Positions 6,176-40,367 of a stretch of 40,367 bases of DNA are shown here, piece after piece. A program made the position numbers and the translations under genes. Numbering within the stretch: position 1 is the first letter of the stretch; the number at the start of each line of letters is the position of its first letter. Under the pieces are notes generated by a model. The model was not told the DNA's origin. It ran no database searches and saw only the letters and a list, made by a program, of their open reading frames with translations. Origin of the DNA: a virus; IMG/VR virus record IMGVR_UViG_3300031576_000146, positions 1 to 40,367 of that record; one strand, written 5' to 3'.

Positions 6176-6508
6176 ATGCGTATTGAAGATTTCGAGATAG
6201 AACTTAAACAACTTAACGCCGATTTGACGATACAAGTAAATCCCCACATCCCCGCGATGGCGGGCGTGTACTTCAAGGGAAAATTCCTATGCGCGTGTCC
6301 TGCGGGTCAGATTTTTGACGAAGTTCACGATGGATATGGAGTCGAGGGTTTTAATGGGCGCATGATTACTCATCGTACCAGACCCAAGGTGTTGCAAATC
6401 GTCAAAGACATTCTCGTGAAGATGAAAGATTCCGATTATCTGGACGCGCTGTTCGGCACGGGGGCGTACAGTGATGAAAAACTCGGCAATCCCAAAAAAG
6501 CCATATGA
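6176..6508 (+). CDS. Hypothetical protein after the capsid gene
   Basis: A 110-residue soluble mixed alpha/beta protein. It starts with an acidic helix and contains a short strand-turn segment AGVYFKGKFLCACPAGQIF near residues 29-47. There are two cysteines, too few for a classical zinc site. The stop overlaps the following glycosyltransferase start (ATGA), so the two are probably translated together. I do not recognise the family. Placement in the head block suggests a virion or assembly role, but the pairing with a glycosyltransferase leaves an accessory role open. Confidence 0.6.
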   Translation: MRIEDFEIELKQLNADLTIQVNPHIPAMAGVYFKGKFLCACPAGQIFDEVHDGYGVEGFNGRMITHRTRPKVLQIVKDILVKMKDSDYLDALFGTGAYSDEKLGNPKKAI

Positions 6509-7626
6509 CCCGTCGCAAGAAAATTTTGATGATTTACACCGATTGGGCGGTGAGCAAGGAGAGAGAGAAGAAAAATGCTTACGGCGGGTGTGGGTACTAT
6601 CGGGTGATAAAACCTGCACAGTATCTTCGGCGATGGTTTGACGTGGACGTGTGTGGTGACGTGCGGCGAAAGTTTGGCACGACCGCAAGTGAGGTGTGGC
6701 CGAAGGTGTTTGGCGAATACGACTTGGTGTGGACGCGCTATATTGAAGTTCCTCGCGCCGCCAGCAATCTTCTCGCTTGCGCCGAGTATTTCAACAAGCC
6801 AGTGCTCATTGATATAGACGATAATTACCGCGCGGTGACTGACCCGCAATCAAATGCCTATGATGTGTATAAAAAAGGGGAGGAACCGCGTTATGGTGTG
6901 GACGCTCAACTGTCGCTCTGTAGCGGCGTGACGGTGACGACCAAGCCCTTGAAGAAAGTTCTCTCGCGTTGGAATAAGCGCATATTCGTATTGCCGAATT
7001 GCTGCGATGTCGCCGATTGGCCGTTGCAAAAACGCACCTACGCCGATGGCAAGGTGCGTGTCGGGTGGGCGGGTTCAGTCACGCACATGCGCGACCTGCG
7101 CATGATACAAGAGGTATTTCGCTGGCTCTTGGAAAAATATCCGCATGTCGAATTGCACCTTATCGGCGGCATACCGATTCAACTAAAACCAGAGGTCTAC
7201 TCCTGGATTGGGGGACACGTCAACCGCCTTGTCTTGGCGGGCGGCACGTCGGGGTGGGAGGGGTTCCCGAATCTTTTGGTAGAGCACGGTCTCGATATTG
7301 GCATTGCTCCGTTGGCGCAGGACGCATTTAACACATGCAAGTCTCACATCAAATGGATGGAATACTCCATGCTGGGTATTCCCACCATAGCTTCCAAGGT
7401 GTATCCTTATCACAAAAGGGTGCAGTGGACGCGGACGATTCAACACGGCAAGACTGGCTTTATCGCGGAGAGCGTGGATGATTGGAAGCGGTATCTGAGT
7501 CTCATGGTCGAAAGCAGGACGGAACGGCTGAAAATAGCCAAGCAATCCTACGAATTTATAAAAGGTCACTGGCAATACTCCAGCCACATTCATAAGTGGA
7601 GGCAAGTAATTGAAAAATTTATTTAG
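6505..7626 (+). CDS. Glycosyltransferase, GT4-like (GT-B fold)
   Basis: A 373-residue enzyme resembling GT4/family 1 glycosyltransferases, which move a sugar from a nucleotide-sugar to an acceptor. Visible features are an N-terminal strand (KKILMIYTD), a VLIDIDDNY segment at about residues 100-108, a central VRVGWAGSVTH switch between the two Rossmann-like domains, and a C-terminal half with a HLIGG strand. It also has a LDIGIAPL segment and a KWMEYSMLGIPTIAS block, which forms the usual donor-binding region. No membrane segment is present, so it should act in the cytoplasm. It sits between capsid and connector genes, suggesting it decorates virion proteins, although a host-surface target is possible. 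Confidence 0.8.
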   Translation: MTRRKKILMIYTDWAVSKEREKKNAYGGCGYYRVIKPAQYLRRWFDVDVCGDVRRKFGTTASEVWPKVFGEYDLVWTRYIEVPRAASNLLACAEYFNKPVLIDIDDNYRAVTDPQSNAYDVYKKGEEPRYGVDAQLSLCSGVTVTTKPLKKVLSRWNKRIFVLPNCCDVADWPLQKRTYADGKVRVGWAGSVTHMRDLRMIQEVFRWLLEKYPHVELHLIGGIPIQLKPEVYSWIGGHVNRLVLAGGTSGWEGFPNLLVEHGLDIGIAPLAQDAFNTCKSHIKWMEYSMLGIPTIASKVYPYHKRVQWTRTIQHGKTGFIAESVDDWKRYLSLMVESRTERLKIAKQSYEFIKGHWQYSSHIHKWRQVIEKFI

Positions 7627-7630
7627 TGAT

Positions 7631-7978
7631 ATGGCTACTGAAATTACTACTGGCTTATCTCCCATTCTCGCGCCGTCGGTTGCCCGCACCGCTACGGGCG
7701 GAGGCGAAATATACGATACGGGAGAGGCGAAAGAATTTGTGGTGACGCTTGATGTGTCTGCGGCAAGCGGCACGACTCCTACGCTCGATGTGAAATTGCA
7801 GCACTCTGCCTATGATTCCGTGTATCAGGACTTGAGCACCGCGTTTACGCAAAAGACCGCCGTCTCGAAAGAAACGAAAGTGTTTACCCAATTCCACCGT
7901 TACGTGAAGGCGACGTGGACGATTGGCGGCACGACTCCCAGCTTTACCTTTTCCATAAAGGGAACGGCGAGAAAATAG
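7631..7978 (+). CDS. Small beta-rich virion protein (putative)
   Basis: A 115-residue beta-rich protein. It has regular strand segments (FVVTLDVSAASGTTPTLDVK, then RYVKATWTIGGTTPSFTFSI) resembling small structural proteins found between capsid and connector genes. The ATG at 7631 is preferred because it lies just after the upstream stop and has the TATG context; an in-frame TTG at 7610 would overlap the upstream gene. A decoration or head-completion role is inferred from fold pattern and position only. Confidence 0.6.
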   Translation: MATEITTGLSPILAPSVARTATGGGEIYDTGEAKEFVVTLDVSAASGTTPTLDVKLQHSAYDSVYQDLSTAFTQKTAVSKETKVFTQFHRYVKATWTIGGTTPSFTFSIKGTARK

Positions 7979-7981
7979 CGT

Positions 7982-8713
7982 ATGCAATTCAACGACACAG
8001 GCGCAAACAAAAATGGGCTGATTCAGCACTGCGAGACGTTGCTGGATTTGCCGTTGGCGGAAATTTCTGGCGATACGACCAAGCTCGCGCACTTCACGCG
8101 CCTGATTAACATTGGCTACCATAAAATAGCCATTTTATTGTGGAACAAATCTGGTTCGTGGGAATTCGATGATTCCAACAATACCGATTTTCCGATTGCC
8201 AGCACGAACATGCTGGATAGCCAGCGCGACTACGCTCTTCCCTCCACCGCGTTGAAAATGTACCGCGCGAGCGTAAAGCAAACCAATGGGGAATACAAGC
8301 GTCTTGAATATCTTGATGAGCAGGATTTTGAAACTGGTCTGCATAATGAGACGAAAGGATTTCCCACGCATTACTATCTTTTCGGAGATTCCATTTGGCT
8401 TTTCCCCAAGCCGTCGTCCACAGAGGTGACCCTCGCCAGTGGATTGCAGTTGTGGATAGCCCGAGAAGTTACGGAATTTACTACGGGCGACACTACGAAA
8501 GTTCCTGGATTTCCCACGCCTTTTCATCATATTCTCGCTCTGTATGCTTCGTTTGTGTACGCTTCGGTGAAGGGTCTTTCTATGGTAAACTCATTGAAGG
8601 AGATGTTGTTCGGTTCCGAGCTTCCAGAGCTTGCGGAATTCGAGGAGGTGAAGAATAGGGATGAGAAAATTGTCATACGCGCCGCCACAATGACGCGCGG
8701 GTCGTATACTTAA
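7982..8713 (+). CDS. Putative head-tail adaptor/connector protein
   Basis: A 243-residue protein with an N-terminal helical region (LIQHCETLLDLP, then LTRLINIGYHK-type helices). A beta-rich middle follows that ends in WLFPKPSSTEVT, then a C-terminal helical section (FHHILALYASFVYASVK). This order resembles adaptor proteins that bind under the portal in short-tailed phages, and it begins three bases after the preceding stop. I cannot name a specific family. A tail-nozzle-associated protein is an alternative. Confidence 0.6.
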   Translation: MQFNDTGANKNGLIQHCETLLDLPLAEISGDTTKLAHFTRLINIGYHKIAILLWNKSGSWEFDDSNNTDFPIASTNMLDSQRDYALPSTALKMYRASVKQTNGEYKRLEYLDEQDFETGLHNETKGFPTHYYLFGDSIWLFPKPSSTEVTLASGLQLWIAREVTEFTTGDTTKVPGFPTPFHHILALYASFVYASVKGLSMVNSLKEMLFGSELPELAEFEEVKNRDEKIVIRAATMTRGSYT

Positions 8714-8747
8714 AGGTCGGGGATAGTAATGTTTTGACTTACACTTT

Positions 8748-9257
8748 ATGTTTAAGCTCAAAGAAAAAATACGGGACAGTATCGGTGTAAAAGGATTCTA
8801 CCGTCTACAAATTACCGAAAATAAGAAGTCAGGTGAGACGAAAGTTGTGGGCGATAGCGGATGGTTCAAAAACGCCGTGACGAATGACGGGTTCGACCAG
8901 TACCTTGTGCGGCTGATTGGCGCACAGGCTTCTTCCAAACAAATCAGCCATGTGGCACTTGGCACGGGTGGTGCGCCTGCCGCGACCGATACGACGCTTG
9001 CGGGTGAAATCACTCATGCGTCGAACAGCCGCAAGGCCGTGACCGCTTCTTCGGTGTCGTCCAAAACGCAGCGGTTCACCGCGACGTTTGCTTCTTCCGA
9101 TTCGTTCGTGACCGCAACGGCGAACATCTCGAACATCGGGCTGTTTCAACAGTCGAACACGAACACGGCAACGCTGTTCGCGGGCAATACGTTCACGTCG
9201 TCCGCGCTGGCCACGAACCAGAACGTGAACATTACTTACGAGATTCGGTTCTCATAA
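8748..9257 (+). CDS. Virion structural protein, tail/fibre-associated
   Basis: A 169-residue protein. The segment GWFKNAVTNDGFDQYLVRLIG, followed by SHVALGTGGAP and a Ser/Thr-rich beta region, is a recurring pattern in phage tail and fibre-associated proteins. The second half (residues about 85-169) reads as alternating Thr/Ser/Ala strands with few charges, as in beta-sandwich surface proteins. It lies after the connector and before a methyltransferase/glycosyltransferase pair. The exact role is unknown. Confidence 0.6.
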   Translation: MFKLKEKIRDSIGVKGFYRLQITENKKSGETKVVGDSGWFKNAVTNDGFDQYLVRLIGAQASSKQISHVALGTGGAPAATDTTLAGEITHASNSRKAVTASSVSSKTQRFTATFASSDSFVTATANISNIGLFQQSNTNTATLFAGNTFTSSALATNQNVNITYEIRFS

Positions 9258-9268
9258 TCAATAAGCGT

Positions 9269-9772
9269 ATGAGCAGGGACATACAGGCGATTCTCAAGGA
9301 ACACAACTTGGGAATCAAGCTCGATATTGGTTGCGGAGCGAATAAACAGGCGGGTTTCGTGGGCATTGACCTGCGCGACCTGCTAAGCGTTGACATCGTG
9401 CACGATGTTGAATCCTACCCTTGGCCACTGCCTGACGAGTGCGTCTCGTTTGCAGTGGCCTCTCATTTGGTGGAGCATATCAATCCCGCCAAAGGCATAT
9501 TCCTCGGTTTTATGAATGAGGTGTGGCGGGTGATGAAGGTGGGCGGACAGTTTATGATTGCCCTTCCGTATGCGGGAAGTTTCGGTTATTGGCAAGACCC
9601 GACGCATTGCAATGGCTGTAATGAGGCGACGTGGGCGTATTTTGACCCCGAACATGCGAGCGGTCTTTATAACATCTATACGCCGAAGCCGTGGAAGATT
9701 AACCAGAATGTCTGGCAAATTAACGGCAACATGGAAGTAGTGCTGGAGAAGCGAAGGGAGGCCAAAGTATGA
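9269..9772 (+). CDS. Class I SAM-dependent methyltransferase
   Basis: A 167-residue Rossmann-type methyltransferase. The SAM-binding loop LDIGCGANKQAG is at residues 18-29 and the following GIDLRD acid strand end is visible. The ASHLVEHI block and RVMKVGGQFMIALPY complete a type-11-like core. The substrate is unknown. Its stop overlaps the next glycosyltransferase start (ATGA), so the two may modify the same glycan or virion target. It is short for the family, which leaves little room for a separate substrate domain. A second enzyme of the same general class lies on the minus strand at 25679-26131. Confidence 0.85.
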   Translation: MSRDIQAILKEHNLGIKLDIGCGANKQAGFVGIDLRDLLSVDIVHDVESYPWPLPDECVSFAVASHLVEHINPAKGIFLGFMNEVWRVMKVGGQFMIALPYAGSFGYWQDPTHCNGCNEATWAYFDPEHASGLYNIYTPKPWKINQNVWQINGNMEVVLEKRREAKV

Positions 9773-10945: not shown

Positions 10946-13900
10946 ATGGCGCGCAGATACGTTTCAGGATTTGAATTTAATTCAACGACGGCGGGTCACG
11001 AGTTTGACCAGCTTACTGGCACTCCTTCTATCGTGACTACAATCGTTCATTCGGGAACGTATGCTTTGCGCTGCAATGCAAGCAATCAATACGTGAGGAA
11101 GCAAGTAGAGTCGTCTGCGGGAACAGGACAGCAATACTTGAAAATTTCTCTCTACATTGCCGCGCTTCCTACCACGAGCTTCGTAGAAATTATGGGGATG
11201 GGTTCTTCAGGTGCTCGTACCGTGACTGTCGGTCTTGATTCCAATGGTAAACTCGGCATTTACAGTGCAGGAACATTGCAAGGCTCAGTGGGAAGCACCG
11301 CCCTAAGCACGGGGCAATGGTATACCGTGGAACTTTTGGGCGGGTACGGCGCGAGCACCCAGCGAGAAATAAAAGTGGACGGCGTTTCTTACGTCACCGC
11401 GACCTTCACGAACTCGACGGCCTGGAACTACATCGAAGTAGGGCTTCGCGGTACAGCGAATAGCGCAGACCTCTACATTGACGATGTAGTTCTTGATAAC
11501 TCGGCATACCCAGGTGCCAGCAATCTGGTAATGCTGAAACCAAATGCGGCTGGGGATAACGCGGAATGGACTCCTTCTACAGGAAGCAACTATGCGACGG
11601 TGGATGAAGTCGGTGTGGACGACGCGGATTACGTGAGCACGACCGTAAGCGCGGAAGTTGATTTGTACAACATGGAGGCGATGCCAGAAACGCCCGAAAG
11701 TATCAATGCAGTGTATTTCGGCGTGCGCCAGAAAATAACCAACACTTCTTTCTCAACCATAAAGATACGGGTGCGCGACAGCGGCACGGACAGCGACAGC
11801 GCGGCAATGCCAATGGCAACCATCGCCGCGTTTAAGACGTTTCCCGACGGCTCGTTTTCAGACCAAAATTATGTGGAAATGCACCTGCTCACGACAAAAC
11901 CGTCGGGAGGCGCATGGACGGAAAGCGCAGTGAACGCAATGCAGGTGGGTATCATATCCACCATTTTGTTTACCAATACCTGCACGGTTTCAAAGTTGTG
12001 GGCGTATGTCGAGTATATTCCCGTGACAGTCTACACCATCAACGTCTCTGACTCCATCACAGTCGCGGAAAGCATAACAGTCGCCCAGGTCTATACCCTC
12101 AAACCTTTTGATTCTATTACCGTATCGGAATCAGTGAACGTCGCGCAAGTTTACGCGCCGAACATTTCAGATTCCATTACCGTAAGCGAATCAATTACGG
12201 TGCGGGCGGACATGAATTCAAATATCTCAGACGCGATTGCCGTGACCGAGAATATTATCATGCTCATTACGAAATTTGTGAGCGTGAATGACGCAATCAC
12301 GGTATCCGAATCGGTGAACGTCGCCCAGGTCTATACCTTGCAGCCGTTTGATTCTGTTGCTGTTGTCGAATCAATCACCGTCGCTCTGGCGCAGCAGATA
12401 AGCGTGAATGACGCAATCGTAGTGAGCGAAGCGGTCACGATGTTGGTGACAAATTTCATAAATGTGAATGACGCGGTTTCTGTGATAGAAAGCGTGACCA
12501 CGCTGGTGACGAGTTTTATAGATAAGAGCGAAGCGATAACGGTCACAGACGCGCCGAACGTCGCTCTGGCGCAGCAAATAAGCAAGAGCGAAGCGATAAC
12601 TATTTCAGAATCAATCACCGTCCGCGTGGACATGAATCCGAACGTATCGGATTCCGTCACGGTCGTAGACTCTCCCACCGTCGCTCTCGTTCAACAAATC
12701 AATAAAAATGAATCCATCACGGTGGATGAATTCATTGACCTTGACTTGAATTATGCGCTTTCGGTTTCAGATACGGTCACCGTTGTAGACGCACCGAATG
12801 TCGCTCTCGTTCAACAAATCAATAAAAATGAATCCATCACCACTGTAGATTCTCCTAATGCCGCTCTGGCGCAGCAGATAAGCGTTTTTGATTCTATCTC
12901 TGTCGTAGAGTTTCACGCGGCGGGAATTGAAGGCATTGAACTTTCTCCAAGCGTATTCGACGCAATCACGGTCTTAGAGAGCGTGACGGTTCGGGCTGAC
13001 ATGAATCCAAATCGGTTCGAGGCGGTGACAATAAGCGAAGCGGTTACGATGTTAGTGACGAGCTTCGCAGACAAAAACGACGCAGTAACGGTCGTTGACG
13101 TGCCCAATGTTACGCAAGTTTATACACTTGCTCCTTCTGATTCCGTCACGGTCGTAGACTCTCCCAACATCGCTCTGGCGCAGCAGATAAGCGTGAACGA
13201 ATCCTTCACGGTCACGGAGAGCGTGACCATGCTGGTAACGAATTTCATCAATGTGAGTGACGCGGTTTCCGTGACTGAATCGGTAATCTTTGTTGTGGTA
13301 AAACTAGTGAATGTATTTGACGCGATAACGGTTGTTGACTCGCCGAGCCTCACGCATGAGTTGAATGTTAATTACTGGTTCATGGCTGATTTCGAGGGGG
13401 TGTTGGACGGATTCGCATTGAATTGCGGCGGTATACCGACGAGCAGTTATGATACGGGAATTCACGCTGCGGAACAGTCAATAAAATTGTGGGCAACGGG
13501 AGGGGACGGCCTGGCCTGTATGCACAAGAAGATTCCCAGCGGAATCACGGCGGGCGATGTATTGTACTTTTGGTCGAAGGGCTATTCTCGTTTTCAGATT
13601 TGGAACTCAACTTTAGGTTCAAGAATACCTGGCACAGTGACGCGGGTGAAAACTGGCGCGACCTATAGCGGCACGAGCACGCTTCTCTACAGTGTTTTTA
13701 ACGGCGGCGCGTCGTTTACGGATTGGGAACTGTTCAAATTTGTTCCCAGCGCAACTAATACGACTGATGTCATTCGTCTTTATTTTTATGCGAACGGCGT
13801 GGTGGGAGAATCAAATGCCGCGTGGTATGACAAAGTTTCTCTGTATGACCATTCCGAACCTGTTATTGTAACTGAGAGTGTAACCTTGCTTGTCACGAAT

Positions 13901-24163: not shown

Positions 24164-24919
24164 ATGAAGTTCCTCAATCCTTATCACCCAGAACCAGTAA
24201 TTAAGTTTACCCACATGCCCCTATCTGGCATGAACGCGCTTGGCGTATCTCAAGGATTCGGCCTTAACGGCGTGGCGTTTTATAAAGAAATGGGTATGCT
24301 CGGCCATAATGGCCAAGACTTGAAAATCAAGACCCAGAACAAAGACGCATGTTACGCCGTGTGTAATGGCATAATAGCCTCCGCGCAGATGTTCGGCGAC
24401 GGCGGTTACGGCATTTATATCAATACGCCGCATTTTAAGTGGCAGGAACAGGAGATGTATTTGCAGGTAGTCTATTACCATCTCTACCCCCCTTTGGGGA
24501 GAAAGCAAGGCGAGCCTATCTTGGGAGGCGAAGAACTGGCGTTCTGCGACAATACGGGCAAGTACACCACGGGGGCGCACCTGCACTTCGGCGTTAAAGC
24601 GTTCTATAAGCGCGAGGACGGCGTATGGATTAAAGACGATACAAACGGTTTTAAGGGCGCAATCAACCCAGAACCGTTTTACGCGACTAAGGAATTCGAG
24701 CTGCTCCCCGTAGACACCCGTTACGGACGCGCGATTGATAAAATCGCGGAAGGGTACTGGAACGCAGTGCACCGCAAATACGCCGTCGGAAGGCTTGCCA
24801 AATACGGACGCAAGCTCGGCACGCGCGAATTCAACGGATTCGTATACGGCAAATGGGATATTGACACTATCTTGAATGACGCGCTGTTTGTCACGTGGAC
24901 TATAAAACCCAAAAAATAA
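24164..24919 (+). CDS. M23-family peptidoglycan endopeptidase (endolysin)
   Basis: A 251-residue zinc peptidase of the LytM/M23 type. The HxxxD metal site is His48 to Asp52 (GHNGQD), His106 lies in YYHLYP, and the HxH pair is His139/His141 in GAHLHFG, the expected order and spacing. It cuts peptide cross-links of the cell wall. There is no signal peptide, so it would need the neighbouring holin candidates or would be a virion enzyme. Residues about 175-251 form an extra domain of unknown function. Confidence 0.85.
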   Translation: MKFLNPYHPEPVIKFTHMPLSGMNALGVSQGFGLNGVAFYKEMGMLGHNGQDLKIKTQNKDACYAVCNGIIASAQMFGDGGYGIYINTPHFKWQEQEMYLQVVYYHLYPPLGRKQGEPILGGEELAFCDNTGKYTTGAHLHFGVKAFYKREDGVWIKDDTNGFKGAINPEPFYATKEFELLPVDTRYGRAIDKIAEGYWNAVHRKYAVGRLAKYGRKLGTREFNGFVYGKWDIDTILNDALFVTWTIKPKK

Positions 24920-25678: not shown

Positions 25679-26131
25679 TCATTTGATTGCAAGCGCGTAG
25701 AGGTCGCTTCCCTTATTTTTCACGTCTACGAACCCAAAACCAGCGCGTCGCAGGTCATGTTTGAGTTTCGAGGCGGTAAAACCGTTCTTATGATATTCGC
25801 CATCATGGCCTTGACTGCCATAGAGCGTTCGCAGCCATTTTTCATCTCCCTTCGTGGCGATAAATTGCCCGCACGCATACTCCAAATCAGGACAATAAAT
25901 CTCCAGCTTGCCGACAGGCATGAGGACGCGGTGCCAGTCTGAAACAACAAACTCCCACTCGGCGCGGGAAAAATGTTCTATGCAGTGGGATGAATAAAGA
26001 GCTTCGATTGAGCCGTCGGCATACGGGAGCGGCGTGCGCAGGTCGTGGCGCACATCCGTGCCGCCAAGAAAGAAATCCACCGTAAGGTAATCGTCATGCC
26101 GATTCGTGCCGCCGCCAAGATTGAGTTTCAT
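25679..26131 (-). CDS. SAM-dependent methyltransferase, type-11-like
   Basis: A 150-residue enzyme with a SAM-binding LNLGGGTN loop at residues 3-10, an acidic VDF strand end, an ALYSSHCIEHFS block and the RVLMPVGKLEIYCPD beta strand. These match the core of small class I methyltransferases. The start is the ATG at 26131, which overlaps the resolvase stop (ATGA) and has T at -1; a longer start would run back into the resolvase. Its substrate is unknown. It is the last gene of the early strand. Confidence 0.8.
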   Translation of the reverse strand: MKLNLGGGTNRHDDYLTVDFFLGGTDVRHDLRTPLPYADGSIEALYSSHCIEHFSRAEWEFVVSDWHRVLMPVGKLEIYCPDLEYACGQFIATKGDEKWLRTLYGSQGHDGEYHKNGFTASKLKHDLRRAGFGFVDVKNKGSDLYALAIK

Positions 26132-26514
26132 AGGTATATTTTCCTGCCGATGGTCTCGCACTCGGCTTCCGTGATTGACCGCATGGACGACCGCGCTTGG
26201 TATTCAAGCCAGTGCTCCACGTCCATAAGATAGCAGCACCTTCGTTTGCGCGGCTCGAAAAACATCACTACCACATACGCGCCCGCCTTCACCAGTGAAA
26301 AGCAATCGAAAGGCTTATAGCCCATCGCCATGTCGGAAATCTTAAACGCCAGCGTCCCCACCTTTACCCGACGGAGAGCTTGTGCTTGATGTTCCTGTAA
26401 AGCGCGGAAGGGAAGCCGTGGAGTTTTTGCCAGCTTCAGTTCGTAAGCCGCCGACCACGGGGCTTGAGTTTTCAGCCACGCCGTGAACAGGCTTTGAAAT
26501 TGACGCTCGGTCAT
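26128..26514 (-). CDS. RecU/Hjr-like Holliday-junction resolvase (PD-(D/E)XK)
   Basis: A 128-residue nuclease resembling RecU-type junction resolvases. The catalytic segment AAYELKLAKT gives the E-x-K pair at about residues 23-25. PFRALQEHQAQAL carries the conserved HQ helix, and KPFDCFSL provides a D-containing strand in the family order. Such enzymes cut branched recombination or replication intermediates before packaging. The ATG at 26514 gives the core without a Cys-rich N-terminal tail that belongs to another frame. It overlaps its neighbours on both sides and is next to an SF2 helicase gene. Confidence 0.75.
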   Translation of the reverse strand: MTERQFQSLFTAWLKTQAPWSAAYELKLAKTPRLPFRALQEHQAQALRRVKVGTLAFKISDMAMGYKPFDCFSLVKAGAYVVVMFFEPRKRRCCYLMDVEHWLEYQARSSMRSITEAECETIGRKIYL

Positions 26515-34714: not shown

Positions 34715-34940
34715 AGGAGAGCGCAATTTGCCGCGTCGGCACTTCGTCATAGAGACGGCAAAAACAACACACGCGCCAAAAGAGCATGGCGCGTGAGCCG
34801 TCGGGTGCGCGGTATTCCGCGTGATAACGGCGATAGTCTGTCCTCCAATGGTGCTTGCTGCACGCCACGGATGGCGTATCAGTGAGAGAAACGGGGGATG
34901 AGGGGTTTGATTCTTCGTGAGGCATATCCGTTGTTGGCAT
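34545..34940 (-). CDS. Cys-rich protein antisense to the ATPase gene end
   Basis: A 131-residue frame with CSKHHW near residue 27 and WRVCCFCRLYDE at about 56-67, a good Cys/His zinc-ribbon core. The last 60 residues are proline-rich and basic. It starts with TATG inside the lysin gene's 3' end (62-base overlap) and its 3' end runs 170 bases antisense into the plus-strand ATPase gene. The zinc motif and context suggest it is real, but the antisense part is unusual; the protein may matter only up to about residue 75. Confidence 0.5.
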   Translation of the reverse strand: MPTTDMPHEESNPSSPVSLTDTPSVACSKHHWRTDYRRYHAEYRAPDGSRAMLFWRVCCFCRLYDEVPTRQIALSSTARRLLLASGLAVQDFPPTFSPPRLPPLAQTLESRERGGRIVYTTLAKYRTSTGQ

Positions 34941-35517
34941 AACAGCCATTGTGGCATTGAATGGCCTGCGTGCGGTATGTGGGATAACCATACGCCTTCA
35001 AGCGTTGCGCCGTCCATTGGAACGCGAAGGCCGCGTCCATAGTTTGCGCTTTCGCAATGTGGCGGTGCACGCAACGATTGATATGAACCCACCCAGTCGA
35101 ACAGCCAGAATCTCCAGAGAAATCCCGCCAACCACCTGTTTCGTGGTAAGAGATGGCAAGGATGATATTGCGGCAGTCAAGGCTCTTGAATCCCTGGTTG
35201 GCGCAGGCGCGGGTTGCTTCCGCTTTCAAACCCACAGGAGCCTCTATGTTACTCACCGTAACGCTCTTGGATTGAGTTTGGGAGGGTAAAGGCTCAACGG
35301 GGTGAGTAATTGACGCAGGAGCCGCCTCTGCGTGCGCCGAGAGAGAAATCTCAACGGGGTGAGTATCCGAGACGTAAGTCAAATCGTAGTAAAACGGAGT
35401 AAAAAACCATAAGAACACAAATAAGATGAGCATGTCAAGGTAGAGTAAGCACCCGATTATCTGTTTTCTTCGCTGCGCTACCATTGCGTGGTAGCGAGCC
35501 ATGTATGAGTTTAGCAT
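34879..35517 (-). CDS. Membrane-anchored lysozyme/transglycosylase-like lysin
   Basis: A 212-residue protein with a membrane helix at about residues 20-44, a flexible linker (45-95) and a C-terminal lysozyme-like domain. The domain holds a SYHETGGW segment with a candidate catalytic Glu126, then SGCSTGWVHINRCVH and aromatic-rich helices. It cuts the glycan strand of peptidoglycan. The N-terminal anchor suggests control by a signal-anchor or pinholin-type mechanism. It is far from the M23 endopeptidase lysis block and lies on the early strand. TATG start. Glycosidase versus transglycosylase cannot be separated. Confidence 0.7.
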   Translation of the reverse strand: MLNSYMARYHAMVAQRRKQIIGCLLYLDMLILFVFLWFFTPFYYDLTYVSDTHPVEISLSAHAEAAPASITHPVEPLPSQTQSKSVTVSNIEAPVGLKAEATRACANQGFKSLDCRNIILAISYHETGGWRDFSGDSGCSTGWVHINRCVHRHIAKAQTMDAAFAFQWTAQRLKAYGYPTYRTQAIQCHNGCYANNGYASRRIKPLIPRFSH

Positions 35518-35986: not shown

Positions 35987-36940
35987 TTAGCTGATAAGAG
36001 GTATCTGGTAGATACCTGCGGGCAAGGAGTGTTTTGCGAACTTCTTGCCCTTGTGGGGTAAGGGTACTATGATGGGGAGCTTCGGCAAACGCTTGAAAAG
36101 AGGGATGACGCTTTCAGGCTCGTAGCTGTAGAACAAACTATACGTTTTCCAATCGGTATGCAGTATGACTTCGCGGGAGGCTATCAGGTAGCCAATTTTA
36201 GCCGCTTTGTCTATGAGGAGGGCAACGCCGCTCATGCCTTTCGCGTTTACTTCGGCACGTATGCTTTCGGCGGTGGCGGGCTTGGGCAGGTTGATGAGGA
36301 ATTGCAATGAGTCAGAAGGGTCTGCTTTCGGAATGACTGCAGGCTTGGACAAAACTATCTGCGCGGTTGCTTCTCCCGCAACGCCTAGCGCGTTTTGAGT
36401 AGCTACTTCCAGCTTCATTATGCGGTTGGCGATTGACTGATGGCGCGGACAAGATAAATCTCCTTTGTGCTTGCAACACTCCTCGCAATCCTCCAACTTG
36501 TCGTACAATTCCGATAGCTCTTTTTCCGCCTTTGTTTCCTCGCTCGGTTCATCGTCAGGCGTTAGCTCCTTCCATCCAAATCCCGTCTGGCGATAACTGC
36601 CGTATGCGCCGTATGCGCTCACAAAGCCGTTATGCGCCAAGAGATAGCCGTCATACTCAAAGAAATGCACGTTTTCCTCGCTTACGGTTCCCGTAGACGC
36701 GGTGCGCGTATGGAGGGACACGATAAACGGCCGCTCACGGCACTGGTCTATTTGTTCATACGTCTGCGCCAACACGCCCGCGTAGTCTTTGAGACTGCGA
36801 AATACTTGCGTGCCTGCGGCGGCATTGACGTATGAGCTTATGCCGTGCGGTTCGCGCACCAGTTGAGCCTCCTGCAAGGCTATGAGCTTGCTCATTGCAT
36901 GATTAGGCGCGGTCTGCACGCCTATAAGAAGTTTACACAT
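35987..36940 (-). CDS. Class II glutamine amidotransferase (Ntn hydrolase)
   Basis: A 317-residue GAT-II enzyme. Its second residue is Cys (MCKLLIGV), the expected N-terminal nucleophile after Met removal. It has SLHTRTASTG with Arg79 near residues 75-84 and LLAHNGF with Asn103-Gly104, the oxyanion and glutamine-binding residues. These enzymes free ammonia from glutamine for a partner. The C-terminal 150 residues are not recognised. The start at 36940 is required by the Cys2 rule and overlaps the amidoligase stop by eight bases. The partner is therefore most likely the amidoligase just upstream. Confidence 0.85.
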   Translation of the reverse strand: MCKLLIGVQTAPNHAMSKLIALQEAQLVREPHGISSYVNAAAGTQVFRSLKDYAGVLAQTYEQIDQCRERPFIVSLHTRTASTGTVSEENVHFFEYDGYLLAHNGFVSAYGAYGSYRQTGFGWKELTPDDEPSEETKAEKELSELYDKLEDCEECCKHKGDLSCPRHQSIANRIMKLEVATQNALGVAGEATAQIVLSKPAVIPKADPSDSLQFLINLPKPATAESIRAEVNAKGMSGVALLIDKAAKIGYLIASREVILHTDWKTYSLFYSYEPESVIPLFKRLPKLPIIVPLPHKGKKFAKHSLPAGIYQIPLIS

Positions 36941-37763
36941 AGGCCACCTCCACTTGCTCACGCGGCGCGTCGATGGAAACACGCTCATGCGGCACAAACT
37001 CCACTAAATCGCGCAATAGAATCAGCTCGGAATGCTCGTCAATGCGCAAACGATGGCCACTCACTTTTTCATCGGGATACTTTCTTACGCTCGCCTCTCC
37101 TTTTTCCAGCTCTCCCTCCTCGTGATGGCGCAATGCCGTCTCGGCCGCCTCGTCTTTGAATCTTTTTATGGCGAGACAGGTGAATTGCAGGTATCGCTTC
37201 AGGGTGCGCGGCGCGGCGGCGGGGAATATGCGAAACTCGATTGTGCCGTGAGACTCAAACGCGGGCTTAAAATTCACTCCATAATAGCGTGACTCGGAAA
37301 ACGCTATATCCTGGTTGCTGCGCTCGTTCGGTAATCGGCAAAAACGGTTATTCTCTCGCCGCGTGACCACGCCGCGAAATTGGCGGGATAACTCTGCGCG
37401 GAAAAAATCGTAGAACTGGATTGACCAAATCTCAACGGGCACGCGGTTAAAAGAAACGTGCACATGGAATCCCATAGACGCATTCCAGTGGAAGTATTTG
37501 TACTTGCGGCCGCGCTCCAGGATTGAAAATAATTCTTTGAGCTTGGCCTTGTCCAGGCGGTTATCCAGGCGGTAGGGGCGTGAGACAAATTCTTCCGCGC
37601 AAAGACTGTTACAATGGTTCTTTTGATATTGTCTTGTGTGGCGGCACTCACGGATTGACCCGTCAGGCTTGAATAAGCCGAACTCTGATAACTGGCGGCG
37701 CAAGTCAACGGAAAACTCCCCCTCAATCTCAAATCCTATTTTGGCAATGCGCAACGGAGTCAT
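36933..37763 (-). CDS. Amidoligase-family enzyme (Amidoligase_2-like)
   Basis: A 276-residue protein with the hallmarks of glutamine-synthetase-fold amidoligases: IGFEIEGEF at residues 9-16 with Glu12 and Glu14, GFHVHVSF at 98-105 with His100 and His102, and HGTIEFRIF at 172-180 with Glu176 and Arg178. Such enzymes join a carboxylate to an amine using ATP. Coupled to a glutamine amidotransferase gene it probably forms an amide, or makes a peptide bond using ammonia channelled from glutamine. The substrate could be a phage protein, the host wall or a small molecule. Confidence 0.85.
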   Translation of the reverse strand: MTPLRIAKIGFEIEGEFSVDLRRQLSEFGLFKPDGSIRECRHTRQYQKNHCNSLCAEEFVSRPYRLDNRLDKAKLKELFSILERGRKYKYFHWNASMGFHVHVSFNRVPVEIWSIQFYDFFRAELSRQFRGVVTRRENNRFCRLPNERSNQDIAFSESRYYGVNFKPAFESHGTIEFRIFPAAAPRTLKRYLQFTCLAIKRFKDEAAETALRHHEEGELEKGEASVRKYPDEKVSGHRLRIDEHSELILLRDLVEFVPHERVSIDAPREQVEVAYV

Positions 37764-37767
37764 AGGA

Positions 37768-38238
37768 TTATACCTCGACCGTTACGCTGCCTTTGACGGT
37801 GTAGTCAGCCATGAAATCGCGGTAGTAGCGTTTGACAAACTGCACCATGCGGCGCACTGCCTCGCTTGCTTCCGCGAAAGGAATCTCCTCGTTCAGCTTG
37901 ATAGTACCCTTGCCCCCTACGGTTCGCAAAAACGCGATGTTAAATTTTCCCTCTTCGACGACTGATTGACCGTAATCGTCAAACAGGTTGTGTTCCTCTA
38001 ATAGGCGGCGGTACGCCAACGAATCCAATAAACTCGGAATCGTGTAGAACGTAAGCCCCGCCCACTTGGCGGACTCTTTCACGCCGCTTGACTTTGATTT
38101 GAAAATCGCCTCCAGGGCTTCATCAGTCTTGAAATCAAGAAAAATGTCGCCATTGCGGCGGTACAAGTCAATAACTATCTTTGACGGCGGTTTCGGCATG
38201 GTTGCGGTATCCGCCTGGTTAATTCCTGGCACTGTCAT
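37768..38238 (-). CDS. Hypothetical protein, possible third amidation component
   Basis: A 156-residue soluble protein: a strand-rich start (KIVIDLYRRNGDIFLDFKTDEAL), a middle helix (AYRRLLEEHNLFDD) and a Gly/Lys/Thr strand segment (VGGKGTIKLNEEIPFAEASEAVRRM). It lies four bases upstream of the amidoligase and is probably cotranscribed with it. I cannot name a family. Carrier, substrate or regulator of the amidation pair are the obvious possibilities. TATG start. Confidence 0.6.
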   Translation of the reverse strand: MTVPGINQADTATMPKPPSKIVIDLYRRNGDIFLDFKTDEALEAIFKSKSSGVKESAKWAGLTFYTIPSLLDSLAYRRLLEEHNLFDDYGQSVVEEGKFNIAFLRTVGGKGTIKLNEEIPFAEASEAVRRMVQFVKRYYRDFMADYTVKGSVTVEV

Positions 38239-38352: not shown

Positions 38353-38763
38353 CTATTGCAGGGGTTCTACCTGGCTTTTATGGAATAGTTTGTACATTTT
38401 CGGGTACAGGCGAACACTTGCCCGTTCTTGTTCGCCGTCAACGGCAGGCGCGGCATGGTAATCCTGGCCGAACTTTTTCCATACTATGCCGTCTACCTTG
38501 GCGTGTTCGCCCTTCATTACTTTGAAACCTACCTCGCGCCATCCTTGGAACGTGCGCATGTCAACGTAGGGTATGCCGTCGAGATGGAGGGAGCGCATTT
38601 GATTGAGAACAAAATAAAATGACCAATAACTGTAATTGCCGCCGTGCAGCTTGTGGAGGGTTTTGGCTTCCCCATCGGAGTCTGCCGTTTTCTTGGCCGT
38701 GTGCCATCGTTCGCGCAATGACGTGAAATAGGCTCGTTTTTGCTCTTGGGTATAGGTTTGCAT
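38353..38763 (-). CDS. ArdC N-terminal-domain-like protein
   Basis: A 136-residue protein with the pattern of the ArdC ssDNA-binding domain: a helical start with LRERWHTAKK, then TFQGWREVGFKVMKGEHAKVDGIVWKKF and an end with YPKMYKLFHKSQVE. ArdC proteins protect entering DNA from restriction or bind it for transfer. Here the metallopeptidase half found in larger family members is missing, as it is in some phage versions. The ATG at 38763 has the TATG context. The match is by motif pattern and is good but not certain. Confidence 0.65.
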   Translation of the reverse strand: MQTYTQEQKRAYFTSLRERWHTAKKTADSDGEAKTLHKLHGGNYSYWSFYFVLNQMRSLHLDGIPYVDMRTFQGWREVGFKVMKGEHAKVDGIVWKKFGQDYHAAPAVDGEQERASVRLYPKMYKLFHKSQVEPLQ

Positions 38764-39375: not shown

Positions 39376-39413
39376 GAGTCTTTACTATTAGGGCTTGGGA
39401 GGCGTTGCGGCGG

Positions 39414-39866
39414 ATTACCACTTTTTTCCGATATTACCATTATTATAACACATATTACCATTTCTTTCCCTTATTATGCCGTTTCGTGTTTTGAAATGGT
39501 AATGGGTAAAAATGGCTAACGCTAGAGAAGGAATGGCATGACTTGACAAATTATTACCATTTCATAACAGAGGATGAGGGTACATGTGCCTAAAAGAGCG
39601 TATTACCATTTCGATGACTACTTGGTTACCATTTACTACTTTTCGTAGTGAAAACACTAAAAAAAAATAAATTATAGGAGAGTATATAAAGGGAAAATAT
39701 GGTAAATAGTATACATACCATGTATGCAGCGATTGAAATGGTAATGTGGTAAAACGTGTATTACACCATTTTTATAGGGTTATTACACCATTTGTCAAGG
39801 GGAAAGTAAATGGTAAAGGAAGTTACATACTTTTGCACACCCTTTCTGTCTGCTTTTTACCATGCG
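39414..39866. repeat. Iteron array (TTACCATT), candidate replication origin
   Basis: Eight exact TTACCATT copies on either strand: forward at 39434, 39455, 39554, 39603 and 39626, and reverse (AATGGTAA) at 39495, 39737 and 39809. Most extend to ATTACCATTTC. Near copies occur at 39415, 39699, 39748, 39761, 39783 and 39858. A 13-base palindrome CATACCATGTATG lies at 39714. The segment between 39640 and 39720 is strongly AT-rich, suitable for melting. Confidence 0.75.
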
Positions 39867-40204: not shown

Positions 40205-40367
40205 ATGTCCCCCGCCAAATCTCCTACGACAATTCCCATCATGTCCCCCACGAAAATAATTCCCGATTATCGTTTCGTGAAAACCAACCGCAAGCTCTAC
40301 AAATGGTTTCGGGATACTGGTTATACTCACGAAGAAGCCTCGCGCCATTGCACCGTCAAGCTCACGC
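40205..40367 (+). CDS. 5' end of the small terminase gene (continues at base 1)
   Basis: The frame open at the right edge is the beginning of the gene at position 1, because the contig is circular. It adds 12 codons in front of the ATG at 40241/1. The 11-base sequence TCATGTCCCCC occurs at both ATGs, so the extended protein starts MSPAK and repeats MSPTK 12 residues on. Neither start has a Shine-Dalgarno sequence. Confidence 0.6.
   Translation, partial: MSPAKSPTTIPIMSPTKIIPDYRFVKTNRKLYKWFRDTGYTHEEASRHCTVKLT
40241..40367. repeat. Exact 127-base terminal direct repeat
   Basis: Identical to bases 1-127. A length of 127 equals a common assembler k-mer, so this is most likely an overlap left from circular assembly rather than a biological terminal repeat. 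It shows that the genome is complete at about 40,240 bp and circular or circularly permuted. Confidence 0.95.

Follow-up and report, generated by a model that had tools for sequence, protein, structure and literature searches.

Conservation of gene neighborhood provides strong evidence that three adjacent phage genes--encoding a class II glutamine amidotransferase (GAT), an amidoligase and a third protein (termed here p3)--work together as one functional module that includes p3, because the three stay together, with their order changed, in otherwise unrelated phages. The explanation favored here, and one that we consider reasonably probable, is that they constitute a three-part, phage-encoded module for amide bond formation, within which p3 would serve as the dedicated, non-enzymatic partner of the two enzymes. 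This p3-type cassette is a version of an already known phage amidoligase and GAT set, plus one new protein family. Because this version is compact--two enzymes plus p3, which no full-length case found is lacking--the question of its substrate can be tested by co-expressing three genes. It also points to a possible pattern in the classical cassette, where an unstudied small gene likewise lies directly before the amidoligase.

Cassette layout and conserved linkage

The stretch of DNA analyzed (termed here the window) is IMG/VR virus record IMGVR_UViG_3300031576_000146. It appears to be a complete phage genome of about 40.24 kb (the record having 40,367 bases), because its first and last 127 bases (1-127 and 40241-40367) are identical, forming a direct terminal repeat; its gene content, which includes a head-tail adaptor and a major head protein along with a terminase large subunit, marks it as a tailed phage. 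Among named phages, those nearest in capsid protein are of the Bacillus Page type, with about 35% identity. The three cassette genes are packed tightly on the minus strand (Table 1), just as the preliminary description had stated: four bases separate p3 from the amidoligase ATG, and the last eight bases of the amidoligase gene are also the first eight of the GAT gene. (A longer, TTG-started GAT frame, extending to 36997, was discarded because the catalytic Cys must come right after the initiator Met.)

Table 1. Locations of the cassette genes and of other features discussed in the text
Feature	Location	Strand	Size	Remarks
p3	window 37768..38238	-	156 aa	third protein without known family
Gap, p3 stop to amidoligase start	window 37764..37767	-	four bases	close coupling
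Amidoligase	window 36933..37763	-	276 aa	Pfam PF12224, glutamine-synthetase-like COOH-NH2 ligase
Overlap of GAT start and amidoligase stop	window 36933-36940	-	eight bases	
Class II GAT	window 35987..36940	-	317 aa	ATG start
Putative zinc site inserted in GAT	window 36440..36487	-		C152-x2-C155-x8-C164-x2-H167
Gene just upstream of p3	window 38353-38757	-		same strand as cassette
ORF	window 34879-35517	-	212 aa	N-terminal hydrophobic stretch; presumably the lysin of the preliminary description
M23 peptidase	window 24164-24919	+		family-supported
Glycosyltransferase (phrog_7162) and two methyltransferase-like genes	window 6505-7626, 9269-9772, 25679-26161	+, +, -		
Small gene phrog_11055 at amidoligase start	L023:3265-3825, L025:1462-2010, L027:1483-2031, L028:1324-1875			in classical phage cassettes

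Judged by homology, the three reading frames are not due to chance, because each has 30-43% identical homologues in two other phages, with best E-values ranging from 1e-24 to 1e-42. These phages are represented by the IMG/VR virus contigs G001 and G002 (8.4 and 48.4 kb, respectively), in both of which p3, the amidoligase and the GAT lie side by side; hence the linkage proposed in the preliminary description, which had named its absence as evidence against such a system, is conserved in all three instances of the p3-type cassette (the window, G001 and G002), the G001 instance being an 8.4-kb fragment. The gene order is p3-amidoligase-GAT in the window and in G001 and p3-GAT-amidoligase in G002, so that p3 comes first in each. 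When all window ORFs were compared with those of G002 and of the 8.4-kb G001 fragment (at E<=1e-4), the three cassette proteins alone were common to the window and G001, and these three together with an M23 peptidase (34% over 160 aa), and nothing else, were common to the window and G002. G001 and G002 share terminases at 62%, so the two are relatives, which leaves fewer than three independent comparisons. On a fourth contig (G003/L008) there is a solitary, truncated GAT (L008:7980-8498), which lacks the N-terminal Cys, the C-terminal part, and an accompanying amidoligase and p3, and which retains the Arg, the HNG and the CxxC...CxxH motif described below; it reads as either a decayed or a repurposed copy.

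The two enzymes

The amidoligase matches the Pfam family Amidoligase_2 with a score of 37.2 bits (E 3.9e-9), which is above the cut-off of 22 and bears out the earlier identification; its G001 and G002 relatives score 36.8 and 39.4 bits. PF12224 is the sole family matched (with no match to the PafA/Dop family or to a PDB chain), and scans of genome contigs using the p3 and amidoligase alignments detected no relatives. The motifs GFEIEGEF, HxH, RY...N and HGTIEFR are invariant or nearly so in the two relatives, the invariant residues being E12/E14/E16, H100/H102, R159, N164 and E176/R178 (alignment A2). The glutamine synthetase (GS)-like motifs GxExExE, HxH and ExR are thus kept and, moreover, coincide with invariant positions of the classical phage amidoligases (alignment A6), to which the window protein is homologous (profile match, E 1.8e-8). 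Membership in this family predicts that the amidoligase forms amide bonds in an ATP-dependent manner.

The GAT scores under the curated Pfam cut-offs (17.1 bits versus 23 for GATase_4 and 15.5 versus 27 for GATase_6), and therefore it is described here as GAT-II-like by motif and by fold, not by curated profile. Regarding motif, C2, R79 and H103-N104-G105 are invariant in the three full-length members (alignment A3), so that the Cys2/Arg79 pair noted in the preliminary description is intact in the window and in both full-length relatives. Regarding fold, an AlphaFold model, which owing to its mean pLDDT of 47 and low TM-scores is taken as a guide to fold identity only and not to geometry, retrieves the glutaminase domain of GlmS as the best of 350,542 PDB chains (E 4e-4, probability 0.99), which points to an Ntn fold. 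In these terms the earlier class II assignment stands. Like the GlmS/EgtC-type class II GATs, the cassette protein has an N-terminal Cys, R79 and HNG, and its model retrieves EgtC as well, though weakly; it differs from them in being a stand-alone protein, in sharing only 10-12% identity, and in having an insertion of about 100 residues between HNG and the presumed Gln-binding Asp. This Asp would be D210 of the window GAT, which is invariant and is followed by an SG[VM] stretch (TGM in G001) resembling FSGAAAV of the LUZ24 GAT. The insertion holds a C-x2-C...C-x2-H motif that is invariant in both full-length relatives, that is kept in the truncated L008 copy and that is missing from the LUZ24 and L016 GATs with which it was compared by alignment; such a motif suggests possible zinc binding. 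GAT-II homologues may act as amidases instead of donating ammonia, which counts against reading the cassette GAT as an ammonia donor.

p3

The window p3 has homologues in G001 (40% identity, E 7e-37) and in G002 (43%, E 1e-42), both of which have an additional N-terminal stretch of about 75-90 aa that is SH3/KOW-like (based on a weak Pfam match in G001). Beyond these three phages p3 is a new protein family without a detectable relative: it matches no Pfam or PHROG family and no PDB sequence; searches of named phages with each of the three p3 queries gave no relative (the one match, at E 0.2, being at chance level), as did a search of plasmids with the G001 p3 as query; and single-protein scans of viral sequences returned known loci only. 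A fold search using an AlphaFold model of p3 (pLDDT 71) gave a best PDB match at E 0.4 and a best viral-library match at E 0.028, both of which were treated as noise. Two specific candidates were ruled out by hhalign, namely, identity with gp17 of LUZ24 (probability 0.3%) and identity with the PA11-type partner (probability 0.8%, no detectable homology).

The C-terminus of p3 (...KGSVTVEV in the window) is distinctive inasmuch as all three sequences stop at the same residue, G[SK][VI][TS][VI]EV (alignment A1, n=3), unlike the N-terminal end of p3 and the C-terminal ends of the two enzymes, which vary freely. This tail is predicted to be poorly ordered (pLDDT 53-60), and the model places a strand at 153-155. 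No other ORF in the three records has a similar tail except for a 74-aa frame that ends in VEV and is unrelated, and the partner family of the classical cassette has no fixed C-terminal end.

Relation to known systems

Phage amidoligase and GAT sets have already been described as predicted 'peptidoglycan modification' modules, a label that is attached, as prediction only, to a cassette of podoviruses of the LUZ24/phiEco32/RIO-1 type (PMC5498523, PMC10580990, PMC11945000). In agreement with the view taken in the preliminary description that no role is established, none is proven for the cassette, and the literature on these predicted modules yielded no biochemical support for a phage cassette of this kind. 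Reportedly, phage amidoligase cassettes were predicted by Iyer et al. 2009 and in the papers citing that work, and for over a decade since then have had no proven substrate.

The podoviral bearers named for comparison are phiEco32, RIO-1, PSA-HP1, LUZ24, PA11 and tf; in LUZ24, PA11, KZY1 and their relatives the cassette consists of a COOH-NH2 ligase, a small hypothetical protein, the amidoligase, the GAT and an ATP-grasp protein, to which LUZ24 adds a cyclotransferase. Common to this cassette and the p3-type version are an Amidoligase_2 and a class II GAT within one tightly packed phage operon, homologous amidoligases, and, immediately ahead of the amidoligase, a small non-enzymatic gene--the place that p3 occupies in the window and in G001. 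In the classical cassette this small, conserved gene (phrog_11055 or phrog_4877) mostly overlaps the start of the amidoligase, as it does in PA11, KZY1, T5S1 and GP100. Because the classical cassette keeps a small non-enzymatic gene just before its amidoligase, p3 probably plays a similar partner role, being, by this analogy, a functional counterpart and not a homologue of the classical protein. The two versions differ in that the phrog_11055 and phrog_4877 proteins are unrelated to p3, in that the p3-type GAT bears the inserted CxxC...CxxH and scores under the Pfam cut-offs, and in that the podoviral cassette has a COOH-NH2 ligase (PF14395) and a gamma-glutamyl cyclotransferase (GGCT; PF06094), whereas neither was found in the window (G000), G001 or G002 by searches that detected both in LUZ24, the positive control. 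The ATP-grasp profile PF08443 (RimK) matched nothing in the window, G001 or G002, nor did it detect LUZ24's own gene, the control.

A wider scan found six further, more distant virus amidoligases, near which lie a canonical GAT (in L016) or a gamma-glutamyl cyclotransferase (in L017, L019 and L020), and p3 was detected at none of these loci. Such pairings of an Amidoligase_2 with a GGCT or a GAT, as seen in PF12224 neighborhoods, resemble the p3-type cassette in that an enzyme processing glutamine or glutamyl groups neighbors the amidoligase; they differ in lacking p3 and in the Pfam scores of their amidoligases, which are 85-125 bits versus 37 here. On the 245-kb virus contig L018 there are two divergent amidoligase-like genes (7587-8801 and 11319-12998), about 2.5 kb apart.

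In Pup/PafA tagging, a GS-fold ligase acts on the C-terminal residue of a small protein. The p3-type cassette would resemble that system in pairing an amide ligase of the GS fold with a small protein whose C-terminus is fixed; p3, however, is not Pup-like either in length or in its end (...EV versus ...GG[EQ]), and the amidoligase matches PF12224 and not PafA/Dop.

Proposed mechanism and candidate acceptors

Within a three-part amide-bond-forming module, the GAT, judging from its motifs and fold, would hydrolyze glutamine by means of its N-terminal Cys and release ammonia; the GS-fold amidoligase, judging from its family, would activate a carboxylate with ATP and join it to ammonia or to another amine; and p3, which the conserved linkage makes a member, may by analogy present or recruit the substrate. 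Such a module is supported by the intact catalytic motifs of both enzymes and by the proximity of the genes, which is kept despite the swapped enzyme order in G002. Counting against it are the small number of p3-type instances known (three, of which one is a fragment) and the solitary GAT of L008. The acceptor might be a host wall peptide or p3 itself, or else some other protein or a small molecule.

Of these, the host wall peptide ranks first by analogy with published predictions, and it can be put forward only tentatively. Acidic residues of host peptidoglycan peptides would then be amidated or otherwise altered, possibly tuning lysins or blocking superinfection; this reading is a choice of target inside the best explanation, and we regard it as possible but short of probable. 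It draws on the homology of the window amidoligase to those of phiEco32/RIO-1/LUZ24-type cassettes and on the predictions published for these homologous cassettes (PMC5498523, PMC10580990, PMC11945000), yet that published support is itself prediction, and the COOH-NH2 ligase and GGCT genes are missing from the window, G001 and G002 even though both searches were positive for the LUZ24 control. Nor does the neighborhood lend the support that the preliminary description saw in the nearness of a lysin gene: the 212-aa neighbor has no lysin match, the only lysin with family support (M23) lies about 11 kb from the cassette, and no lysin family occurs among the flanking genes tested beside the G001 and G002 cassettes.

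The fixed end of p3, with other termini free to vary, raises the alternative that p3 is the substrate--that is, that carboxylates of p3, most likely in the flexible C-terminus, are amidated or joined to an amine by the two enzymes, so as to create a switch or tag. The predicted disorder of the tail, the near absence of similar tails from the other ORFs (the 74-aa VEV frame aside) and the lack of a fixed end in the classical partner family are in its favor. Only three sequences are involved, however, and a terminal beta-strand that docks onto an enzyme (cf. the modeled strand) would be equally conserved; moreover, we know of no Amidoligase_2 that acts on a protein C-terminus. On balance, p3 as substrate seems unlikely. 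Its most specific form is a self-contained protein-modification system, in which the GAT-fed amidoligase would modify the C-terminal carboxylate of p3, the latter being the modified or tag protein; this is hypothesized because a fixed free carboxylate adjoins the gene for an amide-forming ligase, and it is rated quite improbable because there are three sequences and a docking strand explains their conservation equally well. A role in auxiliary nitrogen or small-molecule metabolism, in which a glutamyl amide or similar metabolite helps the infected cell, is suggested by Phage-ZRK32, a planctomycete phage with a GAT, an amidoligase, a glutathione synthase and a GGCT, for which a contribution to nitrogen use has been reported (PMC10945688); but the evidence given there is correlational, no GGCT or COOH-NH2 ligase gene occurs here, and p3 is left unexplained, which makes this role unlikely. 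Modification of a host or defense protein, as part of host takeover or counter-defense, might be read from the gene next to p3 on its upstream side, within the same strand block, which shows similarity to ArdC-N (E 0.009) and matches phrog_25027 (1.6e-6); inasmuch as the ArdC-N similarity is weak and the window shares no ArdC-like gene with G001/G002, this reading is quite improbable.

Genomic setting

Several other features of these genomes may be noted. The ArdC-N similarity of the gene upstream of p3 is under the cut-off, and phrog_25027 is a family of unknown function. The 212-aa ORF has no Pfam, PHROG or PDB sequence match. Among the glycosyltransferase and methyltransferase-like genes of the window (Table 1), those at 6505-7626 and 9269-9772 sit amid structural genes. 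A phage protein encoded at L003:1348-2133 has MinC-C/FapA-like beta-solenoid similarity that is under the cut-off. Upstream of the minus-strand block, window positions 39400-39820 are AT-rich and apparently non-coding, with repeated AATGGTAAT/ATTACCATT motifs; this may be a control or origin region.
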